Positions 10,684 through 27,846 of a stretch of DNA of 64,000 bases are shown in pieces (the first letter of the stretch is position 1; every line of letters begins with the position of its first letter). Origin of the DNA: Halogeometricum limi (GTDB taxonomy: Archaea; Halobacteriota; Halobacteria; Halobacteriales; Haloferacaceae); the NCBI RefSeq assembly GCF_900115785.1, contig NZ_FOYS01000002.1, positions 310,001-374,000 on the forward strand. Reading direction: 5' to 3'. The position numbers and the translations under genes are program-made. The notes under the pieces are model-generated. The model searched no databases. It saw nothing but the letters and a program-made list of their open reading frames with translations, and had not been told where the DNA came from.

Positions 10684-11136
10684 TCAGTTCACCACCGTCT
10701 CGTTCGCGTCGGCGACGCCGTACTCGGTGACGAACTTGACTCGCTGGGGCGCGTCGTCCCCGGAGAACTCCACGAGGAGCGTCTCTCCGGGGGCCCAGAT
10801 GTCCGTCCCGGCGGTGCCGTCGACCTCCAGTACGGTCGAGTTACTGAGCGCTCTGTACTCGTTGTCGACGAGTAGCGAGGTGTCGTTGACGGACAACGTC
10901 GTCGTCCCGGTGTTCTCGACTTCGATAGAGGTCGGATAGCTGCCGTTGTTGTTCGTGTAACTGGCCGAGGTGATGTTTATCGCCGTGTTTCGCTGGTCGA
11001 GGAGTCGTTCGTCGGTGGCGTCCCGTGCGTCGGAGAGTTGCTCTGCGCTCCCCGCCGCGGCGGTGTACAGCGTCCCCGTGCAGACGAGGACACCGAGGAA
11101 GATTATCGCCGTCGAGCCGCTAACGCCGAATCCCAC
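10684..11136 (-). CDS. arlF: Archaellum stator protein ArlF (FlaF)
   Basis: 150 aa. The N-terminal hydrophobic segment GSTAIIFLGVLVCTGTLYTA anchors an immunoglobulin-like beta domain (SYPTSIEVENTGTTTLSVN). It binds the S-layer and works with ArlG as stator. Its start lies 17 nt inside the end of arlCE, which implies translational coupling. Confidence 0.94.
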   Translation of the reverse strand: MGFGVSGSTAIIFLGVLVCTGTLYTAAAGSAEQLSDARDATDERLLDQRNTAINITSASYTNNNGSYPTSIEVENTGTTTLSVNDTSLLVDNEYRALSNSTVLEVDGTAGTDIWAPGETLLVEFSGDDAPQRVKFVTEYGVADANETVVN

Positions 11137-12517
11137 GGTGACCCCCCCGATGCGACAGTTCTTCGAGCAGACGCGCTTCGGCGACGTCGCCAGCCAGCCT
11201 GCTCACGTACGTGAGGCTCTCTTTGTGGTGTTCGACGCGGAGGTCACGCGGTTCCTCCGCTGTCGTCGACGACGCCGCGTTTCGGACGTGCGCGTTCATC
11301 TGTCTCTCGACGGTGCGGGATATCCACTCCTGTTCGCGGTACTGCCGGAGGGCGCGCGCCGCGCCGATGGCGCCGCCGACCGAGACCAGAAAGCGCGTCC
11401 ACTCCAGCGCGACCGATTCGGCGACGTAACTCGCCGGGAGGGCGCTGAGGTAGACGTCGGCGTCCGCCGTCGCGTCGGCGGTCTGTCCGGACGTCTGCTC
11501 GGCCTGCGCTCCCGAGTCGGAGCCTGTGGTCTCCGCGGTGTCCGACGTCTCGAACTCGAACGACCCGGTGTCCGGTTCGGCTGCTTCGGACGCGTCGGGT
11601 TCGTCGGTCGCACCGAGGAACTCCGATTCGGCTTCGTCGGCCGCCTCGGCCTCGTCCGCGTCCGCGTCGTCCGCGTCGTCGCCGACGAGTTCCTCGGTGG
11701 TGGGGACGTCGTCGTCTTCGACCGCCAGGTCGTCGGCGTCGAGGGGGCTGTCGTCGACGTCCGCGTCGTCGTCTTCCCAGCCGTCTCCCTCCTCGTACTC
11801 GGCTTTCAGGTCGTCGAAGCTCGACCCGCTGGTGCTCGGTTCGTCCTCCCCGTCGTCTTCGACCATCGGGTCCTCCTCGCCGAGAATCTCCGAGGGGTCG
11901 TCCCGTTCGTTCTCGGAGAGTTCGTCGCCGGCGGCCAACTCGGCCTCTTCGGCCTCCGCCTCGGAGTCGAAGTCGCCGAAGTCTTCGTCGAAGAAACTCT
12001 CGGCGTCGGCGCTCACGACGTCGGGGTCGAGGTGTTCTTCTTCCTCCTCTTCGGCCTCGAACAGGCCGAACGACCCGCCGCCTTCGAGTCCGCCCATCTC
12101 GCGGGCGTCGTCGACGAACGGGTTGATTCCGCGCGTCACCATCTCGTAGATGTCGAGCAGTTTGCGGATGGTGTCGTCGAGTTCTTCGACGGTCTCGCCG
12201 ATCTGTTTGTTCTCCTCGCGGACGGTGTTCATCCCGGACGACGTGGCGCTGACCTCGTTCTCCAGTTCGGAGACGCGGTCTTCCAGTTCGGCGACGGTGT
12301 CGGGGTCGACGCCGCCGCCGCCACCGCCACCGCCGAAGTCGCCGTCTTCGTCGTCGAAGCCGTCCATGTCGTCCGCCTCGTCTCCGAAGTCACCGAAGTC
12401 GTCGGAAAAGTCGTCGAGGTCCTCGTCGAACCCGAGGCCGTCCGTCGCGAGACCCGTCGCGTCACCATCGGGTAGCGCGTCCTCGTCTTCCCCGTCTATC
12501 CAGTCCATCATTCCCAT
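11120..12517 (-). CDS. arlCE: Archaellum accessory protein ArlCE (fused FlaC/FlaE)
   Basis: 465 aa first gene of the arl operon. Residues 1-65 are strongly acidic with a Gly-rich run. The FlaC-type coiled coil spans about 70-140 (VAELEDRVSELENEV, then KLLDIYEMVTRGINPFVDD). A highly acidic linker follows, and the C-terminal FlaD/E domain (about 345-430) has YLSALPASYVAESVALEW. In haloarchaea, C and E are fused and pass switching signals from CheF to the motor. MGMMDW gives two possible ATGs (12517, 12511). Confidence 0.94.
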   Translation of the reverse strand: MGMMDWIDGEDEDALPDGDATGLATDGLGFDEDLDDFSDDFGDFGDEADDMDGFDDEDGDFGGGGGGGGVDPDTVAELEDRVSELENEVSATSSGMNTVREENKQIGETVEELDDTIRKLLDIYEMVTRGINPFVDDAREMGGLEGGGSFGLFEAEEEEEEHLDPDVVSADAESFFDEDFGDFDSEAEAEEAELAAGDELSENERDDPSEILGEEDPMVEDDGEDEPSTSGSSFDDLKAEYEEGDGWEDDDADVDDSPLDADDLAVEDDDVPTTEELVGDDADDADADEAEAADEAESEFLGATDEPDASEAAEPDTGSFEFETSDTAETTGSDSGAQAEQTSGQTADATADADVYLSALPASYVAESVALEWTRFLVSVGGAIGAARALRQYREQEWISRTVERQMNAHVRNAASSTTAEEPRDLRVEHHKESLTYVSRLAGDVAEARLLEELSHRGGHRGIRR

Positions 12518-12676: not shown

Positions 12677-12710
12677 CAAGAATGTTGCCACCAAATTATC
12701 AGCGGTGATA
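12677..12710 (-). promoter_or_regulatory. Candidate arl operon promoter with TATC-N6-GATA palindrome
   Basis: The palindrome TATC-AGCGGT-GATA occupies 12697-12710. On the reverse strand, 14 nt further downstream lies TTCTTG (12682-12677), a poor TATA box at the spacing seen in the other motility promoters. The arlCE start is 160 nt further on. The site could also serve kaiC (12826), but no TATA box lies at the matching forward spacing. The 308-bp spacer 12518-12825 holds no gene I can support. Confidence 0.55.
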
Positions 12711-12825: not shown

Positions 12826-13572
12826 ATGCCAGAACTCGTAAAAACCGGAGTCGACGGACTCGACTCCATCCTCAACGGCGGTATCGTAAAGAACGCCGCG
12901 GTGCTCATCAGTGGCAACCCCGGGACGGGGAAGAGTATCCTCGGTCTGCAGTATCTCTACAACGGCGTCGACCAGTTCGACGAAGGCGGAATCTACCTCA
13001 CGTTCGAGGAGGCCGAAGACGACATCCGAGAGGCCGCCGAGTCCATCGGCTTCGACCGCTGGTCGGAGTACGTCGACGAGGGGAAGATCAAAGTGTACGA
13101 CAAGCGGACGCTCCTCCGGGACGGTGACTTCTCCTCGACGCTCGACCGCATCCTCGACGACCTTCAGGACACCTCCTACGACCGACTCGTCCTGGACTCG
13201 CTGACGATGTTCCAGCTGTTCTTCGAAGACGAGAAAGAGCAGCGTCAGTACCTCCTGAAGTTCATCGACATCCTGAAAGAGAGCGATCTGACCTCGCTTC
13301 TGACGACCGAGCAGTCGGCCATCTTCCCCGAGACCGAAATCGGGCTGGAGAACTTCCTCACCGACGGGAACATCTACCTCATCCAGAGTCCCGCCGGCGC
13401 GACGAGCAACCGGTACGTCTGGGTCGCGAAGATGCGCAAGCAGTCGATCAAGAACTCGATGTTCCCCTTAGAGATCAACGAGGGCGGAATTCAGATCTAC
13501 GAGCAGGCGGCCGGGTTCTCGATGGTCGGCGAGTCGCCGCCGTGGTTCGGCGAAGAAGGCGACTTAGAGTAA
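12826..13572 (+). CDS. Single-domain KaiC/RadA-like RecA-fold ATPase of the archaellum cluster
   Basis: 248 aa, start ATG 12826. Walker A is GNPGTGKS near residue 28. The KaiC-type catalytic pair sits in YLTFEEAEDDI, and Walker B is DRLVLDSLTMF. Only one KaiC domain is present, unlike the double-domain cyanobacterial clock protein, and no kaiA or kaiB is nearby. Haloarchaeal single-domain KaiC homologues (the cir family) include members near archaellum genes that affect motility and cell shape; this gene most resembles that group. It is not ArlH, which is present separately at 9481-10230. Confidence 0.85.
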   Translation: MPELVKTGVDGLDSILNGGIVKNAAVLISGNPGTGKSILGLQYLYNGVDQFDEGGIYLTFEEAEDDIREAAESIGFDRWSEYVDEGKIKVYDKRTLLRDGDFSSTLDRILDDLQDTSYDRLVLDSLTMFQLFFEDEKEQRQYLLKFIDILKESDLTSLLTTEQSAIFPETEIGLENFLTDGNIYLIQSPAGATSNRYVWVAKMRKQSIKNSMFPLEINEGGIQIYEQAAGFSMVGESPPWFGEEGDLE

Positions 13573-13733: not shown

Positions 13734-14375
13734 TTAGAGTTCGACGGGGTCGCCCGCGTCCTTACCGGCGAGTTGCTGGGGCATCGTCAGGATGACCTGC
13801 GTCGTGCCGCCCGTTCGGCTCGTGATTTCGAGCGTGACCTGCTCGCCCGTGGTGAGGCCGTTCGTGTGACCCGCGTCGTTCGCTCCCGCTTCGACGTCGG
13901 ACGTGTTGATGACGACCTCGTAGCGGTCGTTCATGCTGTTGAGCACGCCGAACGACCCGTCGTCGTCCGTAACCTCGGTGAGACCGAACTCGTCGGCGTC
14001 GGCGACGTTCGCCGTGCCGTCATCTCCGACGATCGTCTGGTTCGTCAGCGTTTGCACGTTGGTCGCGCTGAGGTACTTGATCGACGTCTCGTTCATGTCG
14101 ACGCTGCTGGAACCGGCCGCGAGGCGGACGGTCAGGTTGATGCTGCGGATGGTGTCGTCGCCGACGACGCCGTGCTGGTTGAGCACTTCGACGCGGTTCG
14201 TCACCTTGTCCACGCTCTGCTGTCCGGCGTCTTCTGCGGTCGCCTGCAGGAAGCCGGCCGTGTTCACGAGGACCCCCGCGGCGATGGCCGCGACGAGGAC
14301 CATCGCGATGAACACGATGAGCGTCCCGATGCCGACCTGACCGCGGTCGTCGTCGTTGAATAGTTTGTTGAACAT
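13734..14375 (-). CDS. arlA: Archaellin (major filament protein), downstream copy
   Basis: 213 aa. A class III signal peptide has the cleavage context [19 protein letters not shown], processed by the prepilin/prearchaellin peptidase; the hydrophobic helix that follows (about 15-42) packs the filament core. The mature part has four N-glycosylation sequons (NLT, NET, NQT, NTS), as expected for AglB-modified archaellins. It lies 10 nt downstream of the other archaellin, with nearly identical 5' sequence, so a tandem duplication is likely. Which copy corresponds to ArlA1 or ArlA2 is not decidable here. Confidence 0.96.
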
Positions 14376-14385
14376 TGGTCTTATC

Positions 14386-15060
14386 TTAGAGAGCGATTGG
14401 GTCGTTGTTGTTCTTGCCCGCGAGCTGCTGGGGCATCGTCAGGATGACCTGCGTCGAACCACCGGAGCGGCTCGTGATTTCGAGCTTCACGGAATCGCCG
14501 GTGCTGACGCCTTCGCCGTTCGCTTCGACGACCGAGGTGTTGATGACCATCTCGTAGCGGTCGCCCTGCGTGCTGAGGACGGGGAACGACGTGTCGTCAC
14601 CGTCTTCGAGGGCGTACGCCGTGAACTCTGTCGAGTTCAGACCCTGGTCGTTTCCGCTGATGTTGTACTCGTGAACGGGACCGAGTTGCGTGCCGTCGGC
14701 GTCCGTCGTTGCGTTTTTGTACACGAGGTTGCGCGCGGTGTCGTCGCTCACGTACTTGATGGTCGTATCTTCGAGCGAGACACTGCCGGAACCTGCGGCG
14801 AGTCGAACCGTCAGGTTCAGACTGTCGACCGCGAGACCGCTGCCGGTGTCGTTGACGATGCCGTGTGTGCTGACGACGTCGACGCGGTTGGTAACTTTGT
14901 TAACACTTTCCTGCCCGGCGTCCTGCGCAGTCGCCTGCAGGAAGCCAGCCGTGTTCACGAGGACCCCCGCGGCGATTGCCGCGACGAGGACCATCGCGAT
15001 GAACACGATGAGCGTACCGATACCGACCTGACCGCGGTCGGCGTCAAATTGTTCGAACAT
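14386..15060 (-). CDS. arlA: Archaellin (major filament protein), promoter-proximal copy
   Basis: 224 aa. The signal peptide [11 protein letters not shown] is followed by the same core helix as the downstream archaellin, and the C-terminus ends in the shared [14 protein letters not shown] block. The middle third differs and has six sequons in all (NDT, NLT, NAT, NIS, NST, NTS) against four in the other copy. In Haloferax the first archaellin gene usually supplies the main filament subunit; by position this is the equivalent. Its promoter lies at 15137-15172. Confidence 0.96.
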
Positions 15061-15136
15061 GGGTTGTATATCTCCAGTACGGCCCCACCCCCTTGCCGGA
15101 GGAGAAGACCTACGATACTGACAATCAGTGTTACGT

Positions 15137-15172
15137 ACATAACGCTACGGTCCCAATTATCGGAGCCGATAA
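15137..15172 (-). promoter_or_regulatory. Archaellin promoter with perfect 16-bp palindrome
   Basis: TTATCGGAGCCGATAA (15157-15172) is a perfect 7+2+7 inverted repeat containing TATC-N6-GATA. Reading the reverse strand, 14 nt separate it from the TATA-like hexamer GTTATG (15143-15138). A transcription start would fall near 15112, giving a leader of about 50 nt before the ATG at 15060. Confidence 0.7.
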
Positions 15173-15304: not shown

Positions 15305-15643
15305 TCAGTCGCGAGCGATCTGCCGCCAGACGTCGTCGAGTTTGTTCTTCACTTCGGGTCGTTCGGTGACTTGGACGTTGCACTCCTGACCGTCGAAGCG
15401 GATGACTATCTCGTCTACCTCGCGCCGGTAGACGTTGGTTCGGCGGTGTTCGTCCGAGAGAACTCTGTCGTGGAGGTCGAGAAGGCCGGCGGCGGTCAGT
15501 TCCTCGATACGACGGTAGCACGTCGCAATGGGAATATCGAGCATCTCGCTGAACTCTTGAGCGGAGTGAGGTTCGTCCGCAGCGCGTAAGATATCGGGAT
15601 TGTATTCGTTGCCCAGCGCTGCAAGGGTCCTGTCAGACTCCAT
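15305..15643 (-). CDS. Small winged-helix (ArsR-like) transcription regulator
   Basis: 112 aa. A winged helix-turn-helix occupies about residues 10-75 (SAQEFSEMLDIPIATCYRRI as recognition region, then the wing at RRTNVYRR). A short C-terminal beta segment is EIVIRFDGQECNVQV. It is alone and leaderless: TTAACT on the reverse strand is centred about 27 nt before the ATG. It lies directly upstream of the archaellin promoter and inside the motility island, so control of arl/che genes is a reasonable inference but unproven. No metal-binding cysteines are seen beyond two scattered ones. Confidence 0.85.
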   Translation of the reverse strand: MESDRTLAALGNEYNPDILRAADEPHSAQEFSEMLDIPIATCYRRIEELTAAGLLDLHDRVLSDEHRRTNVYRREVDEIVIRFDGQECNVQVTERPEVKNKLDDVWRQIARD

Positions 15644-15787: not shown

Positions 15788-16351
15788 ATGGCCTCCGACG
15801 ACCCTCCGCGCGACCGTTCGACACGGCGGAGCGAAGAGGGAGTCGTCGGTCCCCGTCAGTTGGATTACACCGAGAGCGAACGCGTCGCCGAAATCGGCGA
15901 GGGGCGGTACGTCGTCGCCACCGACAACGACGGGACGCCGAACGTAGACGAGACCGGGGATGCCCCGTCTGAAGCGGACCACACGATAGAAGAGCGGGGT
16001 CGGTTCGCCAGTCAGCAGATGGCCCGGTACGTCTCCGACCGCGACGCCGACTACGGGTTCTCACTGACGGCGTCGTTCGACGGGTCGGTCTCCCATCGGG
16101 AACTGTTCTCCGACGACGTGGCGACGGCGTTCGGTGACCTCGCCGCGTGGTACGCCGACAGCGTCGACGGCGACGCCTCGTCGGCGGAAGTCCTCGGTAT
16201 CCTGCTTTTGGCGTCCGACACCGACGTCACGTTCCCGACGAAAGTGCTCGCGCCGGTTCTTCGCGAACACGGACTGACGACGAGTGACTCCATCGGTGAC
16301 CTCGTCGAGGCGCTCGCGGGCGACGGTCTCCAGATACCACCGCGAGACTAG
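15788..16351 (+). CDS. Uncharacterised haloarchaeal protein, motility-island copy
   Basis: 187 aa. I take ATG 15788 (MASDDPPRD), which has a TATA-like TTATTAG about 28 nt upstream and would be leaderless. It shows an N-terminal motif RVAEIGEGRYVVAT, an acidic linker, and a C-terminal helical part with DLAAWYADSVDGDASSAEVL. The same two motifs occur in the protein at 27301-27846, so the pair are paralogues of one haloarchaeal family of unknown function. No catalytic motif or membrane helix is visible. Confidence 0.8.
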   Translation: MASDDPPRDRSTRRSEEGVVGPRQLDYTESERVAEIGEGRYVVATDNDGTPNVDETGDAPSEADHTIEERGRFASQQMARYVSDRDADYGFSLTASFDGSVSHRELFSDDVATAFGDLAAWYADSVDGDASSAEVLGILLLASDTDVTFPTKVLAPVLREHGLTTSDSIGDLVEALAGDGLQIPPRD

Positions 16352-16410: not shown

Positions 16411-16444
16411 TATCAGCGTTGATAATGGGGTGGAAGGGTTTATA
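16411..16444 (+). promoter_or_regulatory. cheY-cheC promoter with TATC-N6-GATA palindrome
   Basis: TATC-AGCGTT-GATA (16411-16424) is followed after 14 nt by TTTATA (16439-16444). The cheY ATG at 16469 is 27 nt from the TATA centre, so the message should be leaderless and the palindrome centre lies near -50. Confidence 0.75.
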
Positions 16445-16468
16445 GCCGGTTTCCCAGAAAGTGGGAGC

Positions 16469-16837
16469 ATGGCAAGCACCGTACTGGTCGTGGACGACTC
16501 GGCGTTTATGCGGAACCTGCTGAAGCAGTTGCTCGACGGCGAGCACGAGGTGGTCGGCGAGGCAGAGAACGGCGTCGAAGCGGTCGAACTGTACCGAGAA
16601 CTGGACCCTGACGTGGTCACGATGGACGTCGTGATGCCGATTCGAAACGGCATCGAGGCGACGACCGAGATAAAGTCGCTCGACGCGAACGCGTCGGTCA
16701 TCATGTGCACCTCCGTCGGGCAGGAAGAGAAGATGCGCGAGGCGGTCGAAGCCGGTGCGGACGGCTACATCACGAAACCGTTCCAGAAGCCCAACGTCCT
16801 CCAAGCCATCGACGACGTGGTGAGCGTCGAGGCATGA
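16469..16837 (+). CDS. cheY: Chemotaxis response regulator CheY
   Basis: 122 aa single receiver domain. The acidic pair Asp9/Asp10 lies in VVDDSAF, the phospho-acceptor Asp53 in TMDVVMP, the conserved Thr in MCTSVGQ and the Lys in YITKPF. Longer in-frame starts exist, but the TATA box at 16439 places the transcript start at this ATG. CheY-P is bound by CheF to switch the archaellum. It overlaps cheC by 4 nt (ATGA). Confidence 0.97.
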   Translation: MASTVLVVDDSAFMRNLLKQLLDGEHEVVGEAENGVEAVELYRELDPDVVTMDVVMPIRNGIEATTEIKSLDANASVIMCTSVGQEEKMREAVEAGADGYITKPFQKPNVLQAIDDVVSVEA

Positions 16838-18635: not shown

Positions 18636-18669
18636 TACTGCTTTTGATAATCGCGGCAGAGAATTTATC
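18636..18669 (+). promoter_or_regulatory. Transducer gene promoter with degenerate palindrome
   Basis: A TACT-GCTTTT-GATA element (18636-18649; left half deviates from TATC) is followed after 14 nt by TTTATC (18664-18669). The transducer ATG at 18693 falls about 27 nt from the TATA centre, so it would be leaderless. The spacing is identical to the cheY and arlD promoters. Confidence 0.6.
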
Positions 18670-18692: not shown

Positions 18693-21080
18693 ATGGATTG
18701 GTTTCGCGCCGCACTTCGGCGAGTTCGGAGACGGCTGCCAACACGCTCGCTCGATGACCTGCTGGAGAGACGTCGGTCCGGAACGACCGGTCGGCGGTCG
18801 CTCCTGCCGCGACAGGTCCGTGGAAGCTACGCTCGGAAACTCGTCTCGCTGTTCCTCGTCGTCATCGTCCTCTTCGCCGGTGTCGCCGCGTTCGAGTACC
18901 AGACGGTCGCCGCCGAGGTGCAGTCGAGCGCGCAGTCGGAGGTGGCACAGACAGCCGAACTGCAGGCCAACCAGTTCGGCGAGTGGATGCAACAGCGACG
19001 GGAGACGACGCGGATGCTCTCGTCGTACGAGATGTACGATTCGCCGTCGTACATCCTGAGTGAGAACCTGAAGTCCGAGCGGTCGAGACTCCCACTCGGA
19101 TACGCGGCCATCCACTACGTCGACACGAACTCCGGCGAAGTCGTGGCCAGTTCGAACGATTCGATGGTCGGCGAGACGCCGTGGAGTGACACGGCGTTCG
19201 TCTCGTCCGTCAAGTCGACGTTCGCAGACAACGTCGTTCGGTCGGACCCGTACACGTCGGCGGCCGGAAAGCGCGTCGTCGCCTTCGGCTCTCGCGTCCA
19301 GAGTCAACCGAACGGGGCCCTCGTCGTCACCGCCGACGTGTCCGTCCTCCAGTCGCGTCTCGACACGGAGATGAACGGGTCGTTCGTCCACGTCGTCTCC
19401 GCGAACGGGAAGTCGACGTTCAGTTCCGGCGGGTCGGACCTCGCCGACATCGACCCCGACAGTCCGATACTCGAACGGACGACGCGCGGACAGTCGGGGG
19501 TCCTCGAACGTCCGGCGGACGACGTGATGGACGAACGCCACCTGGTCGCGTACGCCCCGAGCGGTGACGGTTCCGTCGTCCTCGTCTACGTCCCGACGAA
19601 GACGGCGTACGCCCTCCAACACACCGTCGGGATGCACGTGTTCCTCATCGTCGCTCTCGCCGTCGTCTCGCTGGCCGCGGTCGGTTACGTCCTCCGGCGT
19701 ATCACGGTCAGACCGCTCGAACGACTCTCCAGGGCCGTCTCGCAACTCAGAGCGGGTGCGCTCGACACGGACCTCGAAGTCGACAGAGAAGACGAGTTCG
19801 GCGAGGTGTTCGCGGGCGTCGCCCAGATGCGCGACGACCTGCGCGACCAGAGAGCGGACGCGGACGCGTACTGCGACGTGATGGACCGGACCGCCGCGGG
19901 CGACCTGACCGCCCGGATGGACGGCGACAGTCGGTCCAGAGAGATGGCGAACATCGCCGACTCGTTCAACGAGATGATGGACGAGATGGAGGGAACCATC
20001 GTCACCGTCTCCGAGTTCGGTCGACAGGTCGCCGCCCTCGGCGAAGACGTCGCCGAACGGACCGAACACGTCAGCGAGACCAGCCGAGAGGTCGCGACGT
20101 CAATCGAGCAGATATCCGCCGGTGCCGAAGAGCAAAGCGAGAATCTGACGCACGTCACGAAGGAGGTGAACGACCTCTCGGCGTCCGTCCAACAGATCGC
20201 TTCGGCGGCCGACGAACTCGCGTCGCTGTCGGCGCAGACGGCGGACAGAGCCCACGGCGGTGTCGACGCCGCCGGCGACGCCCTCGACGGGATGGACGAC
20301 ATCCGAACCGAGACCGAGCGAACCGTCGAGGAGGTTGAGCGACTGGACGACAGACTCGCCGAGATAGGCGACGTGGTCGAGGTCATCACCGACGTGGCCG
20401 AGCAGACGAACGTCCTCGCGTTGAACGCGCAGATAGAGGCCGCCCGCGCCAGCGAGGAGGGGGAGGGCTTCGCCGTCGTCTCCCGCGAGGTGAAGACGCT
20501 CGCCGAGGAGACGCGGACCTCCGCCGCGGAGATATCCGCACTCGTCGAGGACATCGGCGAACAGCGAGAACGCGTGGTCGAACGGGTCGAACGGATGCAC
20601 GACGGGGTCCGGAACGGGGCCGAGGACGTGGAGGGTGCGCTCCGGTCGCTGGACGACATCGTCGAACAGATAGAGGAGACGAACGCCAGCGTCCACGAGA
20701 TAACCGACGCGACGGGCGGGCAGGCCACCTCGGCGCAGGAGGTGTTGGCGACGGCCGACGAGATAGCGAGTATCGCAGAGGAGATGGCGGGCGAGGCGGG
20801 CGCCGTCGCGACGGCCGCGGAGGGGCAGACGGCGACGCTCGGAAGCGTCGACGACCGCATCCAGTCGCTGTCGACGGACACGACGCAGTTGGTGACGATG
20901 CTCGACCGGTTCGAGGTGCGCGACGCGTCGGCCGACGGCGTCGAGTTCGCCGAGCGAGATTCGGCGGACTCCCCGGACGACCGGACGGACTCGGAGGGGC
21001 ACTCGACGCCACCGGGAGACGACGAACCCGACGTCTCGGGTCGCGCCGCCGCGCCGGACGGCGGGGCGTCGTCGGACTGA
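18693..21080 (+). CDS. Membrane-bound methyl-accepting taxis transducer (Htr)
   Basis: 795 aa. A cytoplasmic N-terminus precedes TM1 (about 50-68, LVSLFLVVIVLFAGVAAF). An external Cache-like sensor spans about 70-305, with TM2 near 312-332 and HAMP domains (about 334-445). The coiled-coil signalling region is centred on the hairpin tip DVAEQTNVLALNAQIEAARA near residue 570. The C-terminus is acidic with no CheR-tethering pentapeptide. The ligand is unknown. Placement after cheD and before arlD suggests a receptor expressed with the motility genes. Confidence 0.94.
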   Translation: MDWFRAALRRVRRRLPTRSLDDLLERRRSGTTGRRSLLPRQVRGSYARKLVSLFLVVIVLFAGVAAFEYQTVAAEVQSSAQSEVAQTAELQANQFGEWMQQRRETTRMLSSYEMYDSPSYILSENLKSERSRLPLGYAAIHYVDTNSGEVVASSNDSMVGETPWSDTAFVSSVKSTFADNVVRSDPYTSAAGKRVVAFGSRVQSQPNGALVVTADVSVLQSRLDTEMNGSFVHVVSANGKSTFSSGGSDLADIDPDSPILERTTRGQSGVLERPADDVMDERHLVAYAPSGDGSVVLVYVPTKTAYALQHTVGMHVFLIVALAVVSLAAVGYVLRRITVRPLERLSRAVSQLRAGALDTDLEVDREDEFGEVFAGVAQMRDDLRDQRADADAYCDVMDRTAAGDLTARMDGDSRSREMANIADSFNEMMDEMEGTIVTVSEFGRQVAALGEDVAERTEHVSETSREVATSIEQISAGAEEQSENLTHVTKEVNDLSASVQQIASAADELASLSAQTADRAHGGVDAAGDALDGMDDIRTETERTVEEVERLDDRLAEIGDVVEVITDVAEQTNVLALNAQIEAARASEEGEGFAVVSREVKTLAEETRTSAAEISALVEDIGEQRERVVERVERMHDGVRNGAEDVEGALRSLDDIVEQIEETNASVHEITDATGGQATSAQEVLATADEIASIAEEMAGEAGAVATAAEGQTATLGSVDDRIQSLSTDTTQLVTMLDRFEVRDASADGVEFAERDSADSPDDRTDSEGHSTPPGDDEPDVSGRAAAPDGGASSD

Positions 21081-21090
21081 GAGCGACCCG

Positions 21091-21125
21091 TTATCTCGGG
21101 TGATAATCTCGGGGGTACGTTTATC
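21091..21125 (+). promoter_or_regulatory. arlD promoter with TATC-N6-GATA palindrome
   Basis: TATC-TCGGGT-GATA (21092-21105, embedded in a 16-base TTATC...GATAA inverted repeat at 21091-21106) is followed after 14 nt by TTTATC (21120-21125). Initiation near 21150 would leave a leader of about 70 nt before arlD. Confidence 0.7.
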
Positions 21126-21222: not shown

Positions 21223-22212
21223 ATGAAGATAGACCCTGACAACTACGACCTACGTGAACTCCGGCGTATCGCCGACGAACGACGAACCGACCGAGACAGC
21301 GCCGACGACGACCGTCGCCGCGGGGGCGAGGGGGGTCGCCCGACCCGCACCGACGCGCCGCGCGAGGGTCGCAGACGTCGGAGTCGCTCGGACGGTCCGG
21401 ACCGAGGACGCGACGGCCGCGACCGCCGGGACGACCGAGGCTACGACCGCCGCGAGAACCGTGACGGGGGCGGACGCGGGGGACAGACCCGGGCCGACCA
21501 CGACGACTACGACGGCTACGAGGAACGTGACCGAAGCGGGCGCTCCCGACGGGACGACGGCCTTCGACGACCGCGAGAGGGATACAGCGACCACGCGCGC
21601 GCGTACGACGAAGTCGCCCGCGCGGACCACATCGTGAGCCGGTTCGGCTTCGGCGGTGGGGACGGTGACGGCCGCCGAAACGGTCGCGACGGGCCGCGAG
21701 GCGGGTACGACGAACTCGGCTACGAACGCTCCTACGACGGCCGGCGGTTCGACTTCGAGGAGGTCGGCGAGTTCCGCTTCGACAACCCGGTGCACGACCG
21801 TCCGCGTGGGCGCGCCGGCGAGGCGCTCAGACACAACCAACTCGAACAGCTACTCATGCACGAGACGGCCGCCGCGGGCGGGTCCTTAGAGAAGCCCTAC
21901 CTCTCCAGCGTTCCGAAGGAGTACGCCGCCGAACGCGTCGTCTTCGACTGGTTGGAGTTCCTCGTCCTCAAGGGCGGGTTCAAGCGGACGATGGACGCAC
22001 TCCGCTACTACCTCTCGGTCGACTGGATCACCGAAGACGTCGAGACGGAACTGCACGACTACCTCATCGGCTTCTCGGGGAACGTCTCGAACACGACGGA
22101 GTTCGACGTGGACGACCACCACCTCAGCTTGGTCCACGTCGCCAGACTGGCCTCGATGGCCGGGCGGAGCGACGAGGAGTCCCCCCGTCAGGGTCGGTCT
22201 CCCTCGCTCTGA
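21223..22212 (+). CDS. arlD: Archaellum accessory protein ArlD (FlaD)
   Basis: 329 aa. It begins MKIDPDNYDLRELRRIADER, a conserved haloarchaeal ArlD start. A long Arg/Asp/Gly-rich, probably disordered stretch follows (about 20-130), and the C-terminal FlaD/E domain (about 220-320) has YLSSVPKEYAAERVVFDWLE and DWITEDVETELHDYL. It pairs with ArlCE in the cytoplasmic switching complex. The mixed-charge linker contrasts with the purely acidic one in ArlCE. It lies apart from the arl operon and has its own promoter. Confidence 0.92.
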   Translation: MKIDPDNYDLRELRRIADERRTDRDSADDDRRRGGEGGRPTRTDAPREGRRRRSRSDGPDRGRDGRDRRDDRGYDRRENRDGGGRGGQTRADHDDYDGYEERDRSGRSRRDDGLRRPREGYSDHARAYDEVARADHIVSRFGFGGGDGDGRRNGRDGPRGGYDELGYERSYDGRRFDFEEVGEFRFDNPVHDRPRGRAGEALRHNQLEQLLMHETAAAGGSLEKPYLSSVPKEYAAERVVFDWLEFLVLKGGFKRTMDALRYYLSVDWITEDVETELHDYLIGFSGNVSNTTEFDVDDHHLSLVHVARLASMAGRSDEESPRQGRSPSL

Positions 22213-22274
22213 CCGCGGGTCGCGTCTGTCGATTGACCGACAACGTTTTTCATTCGGTGCGCTACGGTGGGGGT

Positions 22275-23345
22275 ATGGCGGAGGATGGAACAGACGGAGA
22301 CGCCTCGTTCGACGACGAATCGACGACCGGACCCACGCCCGTCGGCGTGAAACTGGGGAGTACGCGAACGATTCTCCAGTTTTACGACGGCGACGGCGAC
22401 CTGCAGACGGTTCGGACGCTCACCTGCCTCGCGACGTACGAAGACGCGCTGACCGGCGACGAACGCGTCCTCTACGGCGAACAGGCCGCCCAGGAGTACC
22501 CCGACAGAGTCGAGTACATGCTCCGCTCTGGACTCCCCGAGGACGACGACGGTGCGGAGTCGGCGAAGAAGTTCTTCTCCGAGTTGGTGACCGCGAACGG
22601 CCTCGACGGCGACAGCGCCGTCGTCTACGCGATTCCCACCATCGACAACGAACCCGGCCTGCGAAACCTCAACCGCGTCATCGAAGAGAGCCCCGTCGGC
22701 GACGCCCTCGTCCGCAGTTTCCCCGAGTCGCTCTGCGGGGCGATTCCGGCGTTCGGCGACGACTTAGAGGCCATCGACAGCGTGTTCGCCGCGGTCAACA
22801 TGGGGTCGACCAACCTCGAAGCCTCCGCGTACCGCCACGGCGAACAGCTCTCCCCGTTCGTCTCGGGTGCCGTCACGGGCAACGAGGTGGACCGCCGCAT
22901 CGCGAACGCCGTCGAAGAGGAGACGCAGGGCAGAGTGAACATCGACCTGACGACGGCGCGCGAGTACAAAGAGGAACACGCCGACTTCGACGACTTCGAG
23001 GCGTTCACCGACGTGATACAGCAACCGGGCGGTGGCTCTCACGAGTTCACCATCGAACGCTCCGTGATGGAACCCCTCGACGACTACCTCGACGACGCCG
23101 TCGACGAGGTGGCGAACAACTTCCTCGCGCAGTTGGCGAACGACCACATGAAACCGTACCAACTCGCCCTCTCGAAGCCCATCGTCCTCACCGGCGGGAT
23201 GGCCTGCATCCCCGGCATCGTCGAGGAGTTCGAGACGCGACTCTCCGAGGAACTCAACCGCGACGTGGAGTGCATCTCGGCGGACCGGCCGGACCTCGCA
23301 CCCGCGGAGGGTGCCCGCCGCATCGCCGAACGACTCGTCAAGTGA
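22275..23345 (+). CDS. Actin-superfamily (MreB-like; salactin/volactin-type) ATPase
   Basis: 356 aa from ATG 22275; a TATA-like GTTTTTCA lies about 27 nt upstream, so the longer start at 22233 is less likely. An acidic leader of about 20 residues precedes GVKLGSTRTILQF, the phosphate-1 loop. AAVNMGSTNLEASAY is the phosphate-2 loop and PIVLTGGMACIPGIVEEF the adenosine motif. Haloarchaeal actin homologues (salactin, volactin) form dynamic filaments affecting shape and division; this protein fits that group by size and motifs. Polymerisation cannot be inferred from sequence. Position beside arlD is notable because disc cells and swimming rods interconvert in this lineage. Confidence 0.85.
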   Translation: MAEDGTDGDASFDDESTTGPTPVGVKLGSTRTILQFYDGDGDLQTVRTLTCLATYEDALTGDERVLYGEQAAQEYPDRVEYMLRSGLPEDDDGAESAKKFFSELVTANGLDGDSAVVYAIPTIDNEPGLRNLNRVIEESPVGDALVRSFPESLCGAIPAFGDDLEAIDSVFAAVNMGSTNLEASAYRHGEQLSPFVSGAVTGNEVDRRIANAVEEETQGRVNIDLTTAREYKEEHADFDDFEAFTDVIQQPGGGSHEFTIERSVMEPLDDYLDDAVDEVANNFLAQLANDHMKPYQLALSKPIVLTGGMACIPGIVEEFETRLSEELNRDVECISADRPDLAPAEGARRIAERLVK

Positions 23346-24917: not shown

Positions 24918-27020
24918 TCAGTCGTCCGAACGCGCGAGTTCCTCGTCGCCGTCGCGCGCCGAATCCGCCGGGGCGGACGCGCACTCGAACCGCATCACGA
25001 CGGCCGTTCCTCTCCCGTCTCGTTCCTCGAACGATATCGACCCGTTCGACACCGAGAGAATCCACTTCACCAGCCACAGGCCGAGTCCGCTGGCGTGTTG
25101 CAGTTGCGTCTCGGTGCCGGACTCCAACGCGGCGAGTTCGGAGGGGGGGATGCCCGGTCCGTTGTCGACGACGCGGACCTCGACTTCGTCGTCCGCCGGC
25201 CGCGTCGTGACGGAGACGCCGACCCGCGGGAGCACCCGGTCGTTGTGTTCGAGGGCGTTGTCCACGACGTTCGTCACCGCCGTTCCGACCTGGTTCGTCG
25301 CCAGCACCCACGCCTCTTCGGGGAGGTACGTGTCGAGGACGATGGACGGGTTTTCGTCTCGGACGGCCGCCAACCGGTCGCGGAGCAGGTCGGTAATCTC
25401 CACGGGGACTCGTTCTCGCTCGTCGCTGTGCAGCGTCTTGTCTATCTGTCGGGCGCGTTCGCCGAGCGAGACGAGCGACCGCGCTTTCCGCCGTATCGTC
25501 TCGACGTGGGCCATCTCGTCGGGGTCGTCGAGTCTGTCCGCCAGCAACTCCGTGTGTCCGAGGATGACGTTCATGTCGTTCCGGAGGTCGTGTCTGAGGA
25601 TGCGGTTGAGGACCCGGAGTCGCTGTTCGTAGCGTCGACGCTCGGTCACGTCGCGGGAGTTGACGACGACGCCACCGACGGCGGGGTCGTCGAGGAGGTT
25701 CACCGCGACGGCGTCGAGGGTCCGCCACGTCCCGTCGGCGTGCTTCGTTCGGAACTCCGCGCGGACGGCGTCGCTCGTCGCGATTCCCTCCTCGAACGTC
25801 GATGCGACCGCTTCGTAGTCGTCGGGGTGGATGCGGTCGAGTGCGCCGTTGCCTTCGAGTCGTTCCCGAGGGACGCCGAGCACCTGTTCGGACGACGGAC
25901 TCGCGTACGTCCGCGTCCCCTCGGCGTCGAGGACGGTGATGAGGTCGCGCGAGTTCTCGATGAGTGCGCGGAACTTCGCCTCGGTCCGTCGCCGTTCGGT
26001 GGTGTCGCGAAGGACGACCGTCCACCCGCGGTCGTGGCCCTCGGTCCCGCCGATGGGCGTCGCCGTCGCCTCGTAGTACCGTCGTTCGTCGTCGTCTTCG
26101 ATTTTGAGGTCGAGTCGGTCTCTGTCGCCGTCTAAGAGCGCGTACATCCCGAGCGAGTTGTGGCACACGTCGGCGACGTGCGACCCGACGGCCGACGACC
26201 GCGGGACGGTAAAGAGCGGCCGGGCCGCGGGGTTCAACTCGACGACGCGCGCCCGGTCGTCGAGGACGACGATACCGTCGCGAATCTCCGTGAGGACCAG
26301 GTCGCGTGCGACGGGCGTCACGTCGAACAGTTCGTCGCTCTGGAGGCCGAACAGGACGACGAGCGCCGACAGACCTAGTGCGGGCGGGACCGACTGGAGT
26401 TCCGTCGGCGACCGACCGAGGAGGTCCACCGCGAACCCGAGCAACGGGAGCGCCGCGGCGGCGAGGAGAACGAGGGTTCCCCGCCGGTAGGTGCCGTCGC
26501 CGCGGACGAGGAGTCGTCCCATGACGACGGCACCCACCAGTGCCAGCGTGGTGACGTAGAGCAGGTGGACGTCGTACAACGGACCCTGCGCCGCGACGAC
26601 GTAGCTCCACGAACCGACGGTCACGTGGTCGAATCCGGCGACGAACAGGTCGTTCGTCCCCGCGACGCCGGTGACGACGAGGAGCACCACGAGGACGGGT
26701 TCGACGCACAGTGCGGCGATGTTCCGCCGCGTGAGCGTCGTCCTGTCACCGGCGTACGCGAGGGCGAAGACGAACCACGCGGTCGGCGCGAACGCCGCGC
26801 CGACCCACGTGAGTTGGTACCACAGAAGCGACCCCGTCCGCGTCGGAGCCATCAGTTTGAACCCGTACGCCGTCGCCCAGACGGCGCACACCAACGAGAG
26901 AACGGCGAACGGAACGCGAACGCGACGCGAGTAGAAGTTGTATCGAAGGAGCACGACGACGGTGACGGACGCGCAGAGCGCTCCCGCTACGAGCGAGAGG
27001 CCGATAGTCGTCCGTATCAT
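24918..27020 (-). CDS. 7TM-PAS-PAS sensor histidine kinase
   Basis: 700 aa. Seven hydrophobic helices in residues 1-230 form a histidine-kinase N-terminal 7TM module. Two PAS domains follow (about 240-350 and 355-470), then the H box ILRHDLRNDMN with its phospho-acceptor His near 483, N box NVVDNALEHND, G1 VVDNGPGIP and G2 GLGLWLV. No receiver domain or response regulator lies next to it, as is common for haloarchaeal kinases. Upstream is a palindrome-TATA arrangement like the motility promoters, suggesting co-regulation with taxis genes. Confidence 0.93.
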   Translation of the reverse strand: MIRTTIGLSLVAGALCASVTVVVLLRYNFYSRRVRVPFAVLSLVCAVWATAYGFKLMAPTRTGSLLWYQLTWVGAAFAPTAWFVFALAYAGDRTTLTRRNIAALCVEPVLVVLLVVTGVAGTNDLFVAGFDHVTVGSWSYVVAAQGPLYDVHLLYVTTLALVGAVVMGRLLVRGDGTYRRGTLVLLAAAALPLLGFAVDLLGRSPTELQSVPPALGLSALVVLFGLQSDELFDVTPVARDLVLTEIRDGIVVLDDRARVVELNPAARPLFTVPRSSAVGSHVADVCHNSLGMYALLDGDRDRLDLKIEDDDERRYYEATATPIGGTEGHDRGWTVVLRDTTERRRTEAKFRALIENSRDLITVLDAEGTRTYASPSSEQVLGVPRERLEGNGALDRIHPDDYEAVASTFEEGIATSDAVRAEFRTKHADGTWRTLDAVAVNLLDDPAVGGVVVNSRDVTERRRYEQRLRVLNRILRHDLRNDMNVILGHTELLADRLDDPDEMAHVETIRRKARSLVSLGERARQIDKTLHSDERERVPVEITDLLRDRLAAVRDENPSIVLDTYLPEEAWVLATNQVGTAVTNVVDNALEHNDRVLPRVGVSVTTRPADDEVEVRVVDNGPGIPPSELAALESGTETQLQHASGLGLWLVKWILSVSNGSISFEERDGRGTAVVMRFECASAPADSARDGDEELARSDD

Positions 27021-27122: not shown

Positions 27123-27156
27123 CTTAAGCAGTTCCCTCGCGGTATCGAGTGTGATA
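27123..27156 (-). promoter_or_regulatory. Candidate histidine-kinase promoter with TATC-N6-GATA palindrome
   Basis: TATC-GAGTGT-GATA occupies 27143-27156. On the reverse strand CTTAAG (27128-27123) follows after 14 nt, the same distance as in the motility promoters. Initiation near 27098 would give a leader of about 78 nt. No TATA box is placed to serve the forward gene at 27301. The rest of the 280-bp spacer shows no gene. Confidence 0.6.
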
Positions 27157-27300: not shown

Positions 27301-27846
27301 ATGGACGAAGCGGACCGCGAACCCCTCACACCGGACGAACTGGACTTTCGACGGGACGACCGAGTGACCGCACTGGGCGACGGGCGGTACGTCGTCGCCA
27401 CCAGCACCGACCCCGCACCCACCCCGAGACGGCCGCTCTCGACGGGCGTTCGAGGACGACCAGGTGACGTCGACGCCGAGACCGACGTCGGTACCGATGC
27501 CGCCGACGCCGATACGGAGACCGACGTTGATGCGGAGACCGACGGCGGTGTCGACACCGCCGGCAACGGCGCGGACGCCGCGGCGACACCGACCGCGGTA
27601 CCGGACGAGACGGCTCTCGCGCGCGAGTCGCGAGACGACCCGAAGTACTTCGTCGAACTCGCGGCGCGGACGGACGAAGGGACGTTCGAGACGCGCATCG
27701 ACGGCGACGACATCGGCGCGGTGTGTGCGTCGATGCTCCGCTGGTACGCGCGGCAGGTCTCACCGTCCGACGACCCGAAGAAAGTGCTCTCGGTCCTCCT
27801 CTCGCGCTCGGAGTTCGGCCTCAGAGGCCCAACTGCCGACCGATGA
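27301..27846 (+). CDS. Uncharacterised haloarchaeal protein, paralogue of 15788-16351
   Basis: 181 aa from ATG 27301; a 64-residue in-frame extension is basic and non-typical, so it is left out. RVTALGDGRYVVATS matches RVAEIGEGRYVVATD of the motility-island protein, and SMLRWYARQVSPSDDPKKVL matches its C-terminal block. Between them is a degenerate Asp/Glu/Thr/Ala repeat. The last 26 bp overlap the convergent acyl-CoA dehydrogenase gene. Function is unknown. Confidence 0.8.
   Translation: MDEADREPLTPDELDFRRDDRVTALGDGRYVVATSTDPAPTPRRPLSTGVRGRPGDVDAETDVGTDAADADTETDVDAETDGGVDTAGNGADAAATPTAVPDETALARESRDDPKYFVELAARTDEGTFETRIDGDDIGAVCASMLRWYARQVSPSDDPKKVLSVLLSRSEFGLRGPTADR

Follow-up and report, generated by a model that had tools for sequence, protein, structure and literature searches.

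A CsmR ortholog in the motility island of Halogeometricum limi and its predicted operators two helical turns upstream of TATA boxes

Introduction

CsmR (HVO_1209) of Haloferax volcanii, published in June 2026, is a regulator of swimming (PMC13286277). ChIP-seq yielded the motif TATCA(N4)TGATA at arl and che promoters, deletion of csmR leads to the loss of archaella and motility, overexpression causes hypermotility and rod-locking, and CirA acts as a counter-regulator (PMC13286277). Paradoxically, arl and che transcripts rise in the deletion strain despite the lost motility, and the strongest upregulation is seen for genes with motif-containing promoter-proximal peaks (PMC13286277). According to the same study, csmR is invariably accompanied by archaellin genes, and it classifies the protein as Lrp/AsnC from structural modelling while also reporting a match to Phr (PMC13286277).

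Another described regulator, EarA of Methanococcus maripaludis and Pyrococcus furiosus, is likewise a small winged-helix protein; in a recruitment model, it acts upstream of BRE and TATA at the archaellum operon. However, EarA is absent from haloarchaea and shares neither sequence nor structural similarity with CsmR (PMC13286277).

Here, we analyse a CsmR-type gene and its predicted operators in 64,000 nucleotides of Halogeometricum limi (contig NZ_FOYS01000002.1; this whole stretch is called the window) and in other haloarchaea. The available part of the text of PMC13286277 makes no mention of a spacing rule, sites at chemoreceptor genes, a csmR self-site in further genera, or a paralogue of a second chemotaxis system. 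Relative to that part, our analysis adds the fixed spacing, a differently placed csmR self-site elsewhere, a paralogue clade, and a predicted ArsR/Phr-type fold.

Results

The sequence-only reading of the window had placed a 112-aa winged-helix protein in the motility island, and this assignment holds. The frame is open on the minus strand from an ATG at 15643 to 15305 (the plus strand of the same segment is interrupted by a stop), the N-terminal half matches Pfam HTH_20 (PF12840) with 34.8 bits against a cut-off of 27, and the AlphaFold2 model is a winged helix of medium confidence (pLDDT 75). Relatives are also found in most haloarchaeal genomes searched, and the gene is therefore real. NCBIfam provides no usable name for the protein, and a search for viral relatives found none.

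On the same strand, csmR is followed by arlA1 and arlA2, with cirA facing them and arlC/E beyond, whereas its other flank is occupied by a DUF7500 gene and then cheY (Table 1). The order cheC-cheY-DUF7500-csmR-arlA1-arlA2-cirA-arlC/E is common to the window and Haloferax (H. sulfurifontis, locus L062). The protein shows 96% identity to its counterpart in H. pallidum and 88-90% to Haloferax CsmR over 112 aa, and it groups with Haloferacaceae relatives in the tree (clade support 98/98). These comparisons identify it as an ortholog of CsmR (HVO_1209); the H. volcanii record was absent from the loci compared, so the assignment rests on sister species, gene order, and the published description. The two proteins have in common their orthologous position and gene order, the palindrome at arl and che promoters, the winged helix, and a proposed small dimer. 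They differ in genus and in the operator of arlA1, which reads TATCGN4CGATA here instead of TATCAN4TGATA.

The earlier view that this is the sole dedicated regulator of the island was nearly right, but the KaiC-type cirA and a 7TM histidine kinase are encoded nearby. The island also contains two DUF7500 genes, one separating csmR from cheY and one adjacent to the kinase operator, and a salactin-family (actin-like) gene directly 3′ of the arlD/E-type gene.

Table 1. Genes and predicted regulatory elements of the window
Feature	Position	Strand	Basis or remark
arlC/E (FlaC_arch + Arch_fla_DE)	11120..12517	-	Pfam
Putative CsmR-type operator, arlC/E-cirA intergenic, TATCACCGCTGATA	12697..12710	-	Read towards arlC; exact consensus
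TTCTTGTA		-	14 nt downstream of the 12697..12710 operator, towards arlC
cirA-like KaiC ATPase	12826..13572	+	Pfam KaiC, 1.8e-51
arlA2, archaellin	13734..14375	-	PF01917, 1.4e-33
arlA1, archaellin	14386..15060	-	PF01917, 1.2e-32
TATA-like box of arlA1, GTTATGTA	15136..15143	-	Starts 14 nt past operator
Putative CsmR-type operator of arlA1, TATCGGCTCCGATA	15158..15171	-	Read towards arlA1; TATCGN4CGATA variant; arms extend to 15157-15172
csmR ortholog, 112-aa winged-helix (ArsR/Phr-like) regulator	15305..15643	-	ORF, Pfam HTH_20, alignments, synteny with Haloferax
DUF7500 gene	15788-16351	+	
Putative CsmR-type operator of cheY, TATCAGCGTTGATA	16411..16424	+	Exact published consensus; present in 21/21 related loci
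TATA box of cheY, TTTATAGC	16439..16446	+	14 nt past operator
cheY, response regulator receiver	16469..16837	+	Pfam PF00072, 9e-31
Weak (8/10) operator-like site ahead of chemoreceptor gene	18636..18649	+	TTTATCCG 14 nt downstream
Chemoreceptor gene	18693-21080		Pfam MCPsignal
One-mismatch putative operator ahead of arlD/E-type gene, TATCTCGGGTGATA	21092..21105	+	TTTATCAC 14 nt downstream
arlD/E-type gene	21223-22212		Pfam PF04659
Salactin-family gene	22233-23345	+	PF25229, E 2.8e-182
7TM histidine kinase	24918-27020	-	Pfam
Putative CsmR-type operator ahead of 7TM histidine kinase, TATCACACTCGATA	27143..27156	-	CTTAAGTA 14 nt downstream
DUF7500 gene	27301-27846	+	

The AlphaFold2 model of CsmR was compared with known folds by Foldseek. 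The best match was Phr of P. furiosus (PDB code 2p4w; E 7e-4, TMq 0.70), followed by CadC, CzrA, and SmtB; Lrp/AsnC proteins are absent from the top 50 fold matches. HTH_20 was detected in 38/38 orthologs at E<=0.01, an AsnC-type HTH matched weakly in 8/38, and no Pfam match to a RAM-type C-terminal domain was obtained in any of the 38 members at E<=0.01. Neither the single protein nor a profile gave a significant match when solved structures were searched by sequence. The recognition helix region reads IPIATCYRRIEEL, and P38-I46 are nearly invariant in the ortholog alignments.

Judged from the model and the domain matches, the fold of CsmR appears to be of the ArsR/Phr type and not of the Lrp/AsnC type. 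With Phr and ArsR proteins, CsmR shares the best structural match and HTH_20, whereas the C-terminal part of its model differs. Phr has about 200 aa and is an autoregulated heat-shock repressor, and a metal-binding site is missing from many ArsR proteins. The Lrp/AsnC class shares the winged HTH, but the missing RAM-type (effector-binding/oligomerisation) domain, HTH_20, and the Phr/ArsR fold matches all speak against placing CsmR there.

At the archaellin promoter, the element TTATCGG-AG-CCGATAA consists of two 7-bp arms that pair perfectly and an AG centre that is not self-complementary (7/8 pairs), so its earlier description as a 16-bp perfect palindrome was right for the arms and slightly overstated for the 2-bp centre. 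Nearly all Haloferax and Halobellus loci hold TATCAN4TGATA at this position. When template arms and TATA spacing are combined, the window contains four full sites (arlA1, cheY, arlC, and the 7TM kinase) versus none in 20 Markov-shuffled windows. In Haloferax marisrubri (locus L148), a site also precedes a gene that starts similarly to the 7TM kinase gene. The weak site at 18636 scores 11/13, for which 2.6 occurrences per window are expected by chance.

Genome-wide, TATCRN4YGATA occurs at 17 sites versus none for the reversed pattern; several of these fall within coding sequence and probably reflect chance. A site is found at 5/12 chemoreceptor (MCP) genes (hypergeometric p about 1e-9, assuming 3600 genes). 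An extra archaellin gene far from the island (genome G000, contig C3:1833-2363; L007) has the site TATCGTTATTGATA upstream.

The spacing between motif and TATA box is typically the same from site to site. Across 21 loci from Haloferax, Halogeometricum, Halobellus, and Salinigranum, the promoters of cheY, arlA1, and arlC keep the arms but are free in the four spacer bases, and at these three non-homologous promoters a TATA-like box begins 14 nt past the motif, which places the dyad 21 bp, or two helical turns, from the TATA box. Of 147 distinct sites, drawn from many genera, 94 have TTA[ATG] at offset 15, whereas other offsets average 1.4; related species share similar sites, so the 94 are not a tally of independent events. 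The rule is obeyed by promoters of cheY, archaellin, arlC, cheW, cheB, and a small membrane protein, and in other genera one palindrome lies between divergent cheW and cheB genes with TATA boxes equidistant on both sides. A gene for a membrane protein of roughly 92 aa (e.g. MIEVLYAVSTLVFVVAGLTMVGMAIRAYVQTSR) is conserved near csmR in other haloarchaea (L086, L091, L095-L101, L186, L190, L191, and others), and its promoter carried a CsmR-type site in 23/23 cases tested.

Orthologs and palindrome co-occur across genomes. In 146 genomes of the order, the mean count of exact motifs is 2.94 with csmR and archaellin and 2.45 with a csmR-like gene but no archaellin, versus 0.83 with archaellin but no csmR and 0.75 with neither, whereas the reversed-pattern control stays at 0.3-0.7 in all four groups. 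The count tracks csmR presence when permuted inside families (p=2e-4; the presence/absence data are phylogenetically clustered), and the contrast is not seen in families f7 and f14. None of nine archaellin promoters in four archaellated genomes without csmR has a site of at least 9/10; in csmR-bearing loci, roughly half of the archaellin promoters do. Exact sites are absent from 9/84 archaellated genomes that carry csmR, and in Halolamina, which retains csmR, the loci examined show no convincing site.

We also considered whether the motif is confined to archaellated species, which the mean in csmR-like genomes without archaellin contradicts. At the threshold used, 22/106 genomes with csmR-like genes lack PF01917, and the published strict co-occurrence with archaellins fails there. 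Most archaellin-less copies examined belong to a paralogue clade or are isolated, so true csmR may follow the rule more closely. One such isolated csmR is found in a Haloquadratum-like genome (G060, L051; 47% GC) in which no archaellin, PF04659, or MCP was found; it contains 14 exact motifs versus 2 reversed controls, and the examined sites have no TATA at +14.

The promoter of csmR itself carries no site in the window (best 7/10). The earlier statement to this effect is true of this lineage, but many other haloarchaea do possess one: a site scoring 9/10 or better is found at 74% of their csmR promoters, against a background of 6%. These self-sites follow the TATA rule in just 1/42. Haloarcula and its relatives have a site that covers the BRE and stops 2 nt short of the TATA box; Halorussus, Halomicrococcus, and some others have one that overlaps the start. 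This geometry suggests autorepression of csmR in other haloarchaea.

A CsmR-like paralogue is present in complete genomes that lack both archaellins and PF04659. Several genomes, some archaellated and some not, have it in a second che cluster (L182, L183, L192, L196, L198), and others have it elsewhere; moderate support (91/60) unites the paralogues in one clade. All six archaellum-less genomes with a readable motif-linked cheY have the exact motif and a TATA box 14 nt downstream of it, upstream of cheY. The paralogue, whose recognition helix is identical to that of CsmR, probably recognises the same operator.

Archaellum-adjacent CsmR variants in L186, L190, and L194 have the recognition helix IPVTTSYRRV. 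Their archaellin promoters are devoid of the canonical site and show a TTTCC...TTGAAA-like repeat at a similar distance, a possible case of protein-DNA covariation; for this variant of family f7, a possible altered operator was sought in three promoters only. In L197 (genome G009), a divergent csmR-like gene has a KaiC/cirA-like gene directly 3′, which suggests that the pairing of CsmR and CirA is old.

Discussion

The winged-helix protein of the H. limi island very probably reads the palindrome upstream of the swimming genes, as far as can be judged from sequence. The sequence-only reading had guessed as much, and two checks that it named, co-occurrence of orthologues with the palindrome and an effect of deletion on arl/che transcripts, turn out in its favour. 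The guess agrees with published work, since the protein is an ortholog of CsmR, for which ChIP-seq in H. volcanii gives the same palindrome at arl/che promoters and deletion raises these transcripts while abolishing motility (PMC13286277).

We consider it highly likely that the protein is CsmR and that, as a homodimer on TATCR-N4-YGATA two turns upstream of TATA, it controls TFB/TBP loading at motility and chemosensory promoters. The archaellin, arlC, and cheY promoters and those of several chemoreceptors and a kinase would each hold an ArsR/Phr-type dimer on the same DNA face as the TATA box, just upstream of the BRE and with the dyad 21 bp upstream of TATA. In this position, CsmR would govern loading, presumably through contact with TFB. 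Binding in vivo is known from H. volcanii (PMC13286277), and contact of the dimer with the palindrome would be expected in Halogeometricum.

The sign of this action is probably activating or permissive, counterbalanced by CirA. The upstream position, the constant phase, and hypermotility on overexpression point to activation or tuning, whereas derepression in the deletion points to repression; because the genes bound in H. volcanii rise in its non-motile deletion strain, a simple activator model cannot be taken as established. CsmR might instead repress arl/che genes directly, with motility lost in the deletion through unbalanced expression or failed assembly. Although the genes with motif peaks are those most strongly upregulated in the deletion, we regard direct repression as possible but doubtful, given that overexpression yields hypermotility (PMC13286277) and that the site constantly lies 14 nt upstream of TATA, clear of the BRE and start that csmR self-sites in other genera do overlap.

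It is very unlikely that CsmR is a mere neighbour and that the palindrome is read by another factor, either a same-helix paralogue or an unrelated regulator. Paralogues with the same IPIATCYRRI helix do exist in other families, with the motif ahead of a different cheY, but the ChIP-seq motif came from CsmR itself (PMC13286277), csmR is the sole strong match among the three matches listed for this genome, and csmR and motif are jointly missing in archaellated genomes. AT-rich inverted repeats near TATA boxes may arise by chance or structure, but the palindrome as a general promoter or DNA-structure feature without a dedicated regulator is most improbable and largely refuted by the absence of control sites, the enrichment at motility and chemosensory genes, the free spacer between conserved arms, and the dependence of the motif on csmR.

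Across haloarchaea, the CsmR family may use one palindrome in two geometries, one at motility and chemosensory genes and another at csmR itself, with a paralogue clade running a second chemosensory system in archaellum-less species; we give this broader proposal an even chance. A dyad two turns upstream of TATA would serve activation or tuning, and a site abutting TATA/BRE or lying over the start of csmR would serve autorepression; the Haloferax/Halogeometricum lineage would have no such loop.

How haloarchaea, which lack EarA, switch on archaella had no answer before CsmR, and the data published on it present a paradox. The two-turn spacing, the distinct geometry of the self-site, and the natural losses of protein and motif make this paradox directly testable, and our findings suggest that control by CsmR extends to chemoreceptors and to a second chemotaxis system.
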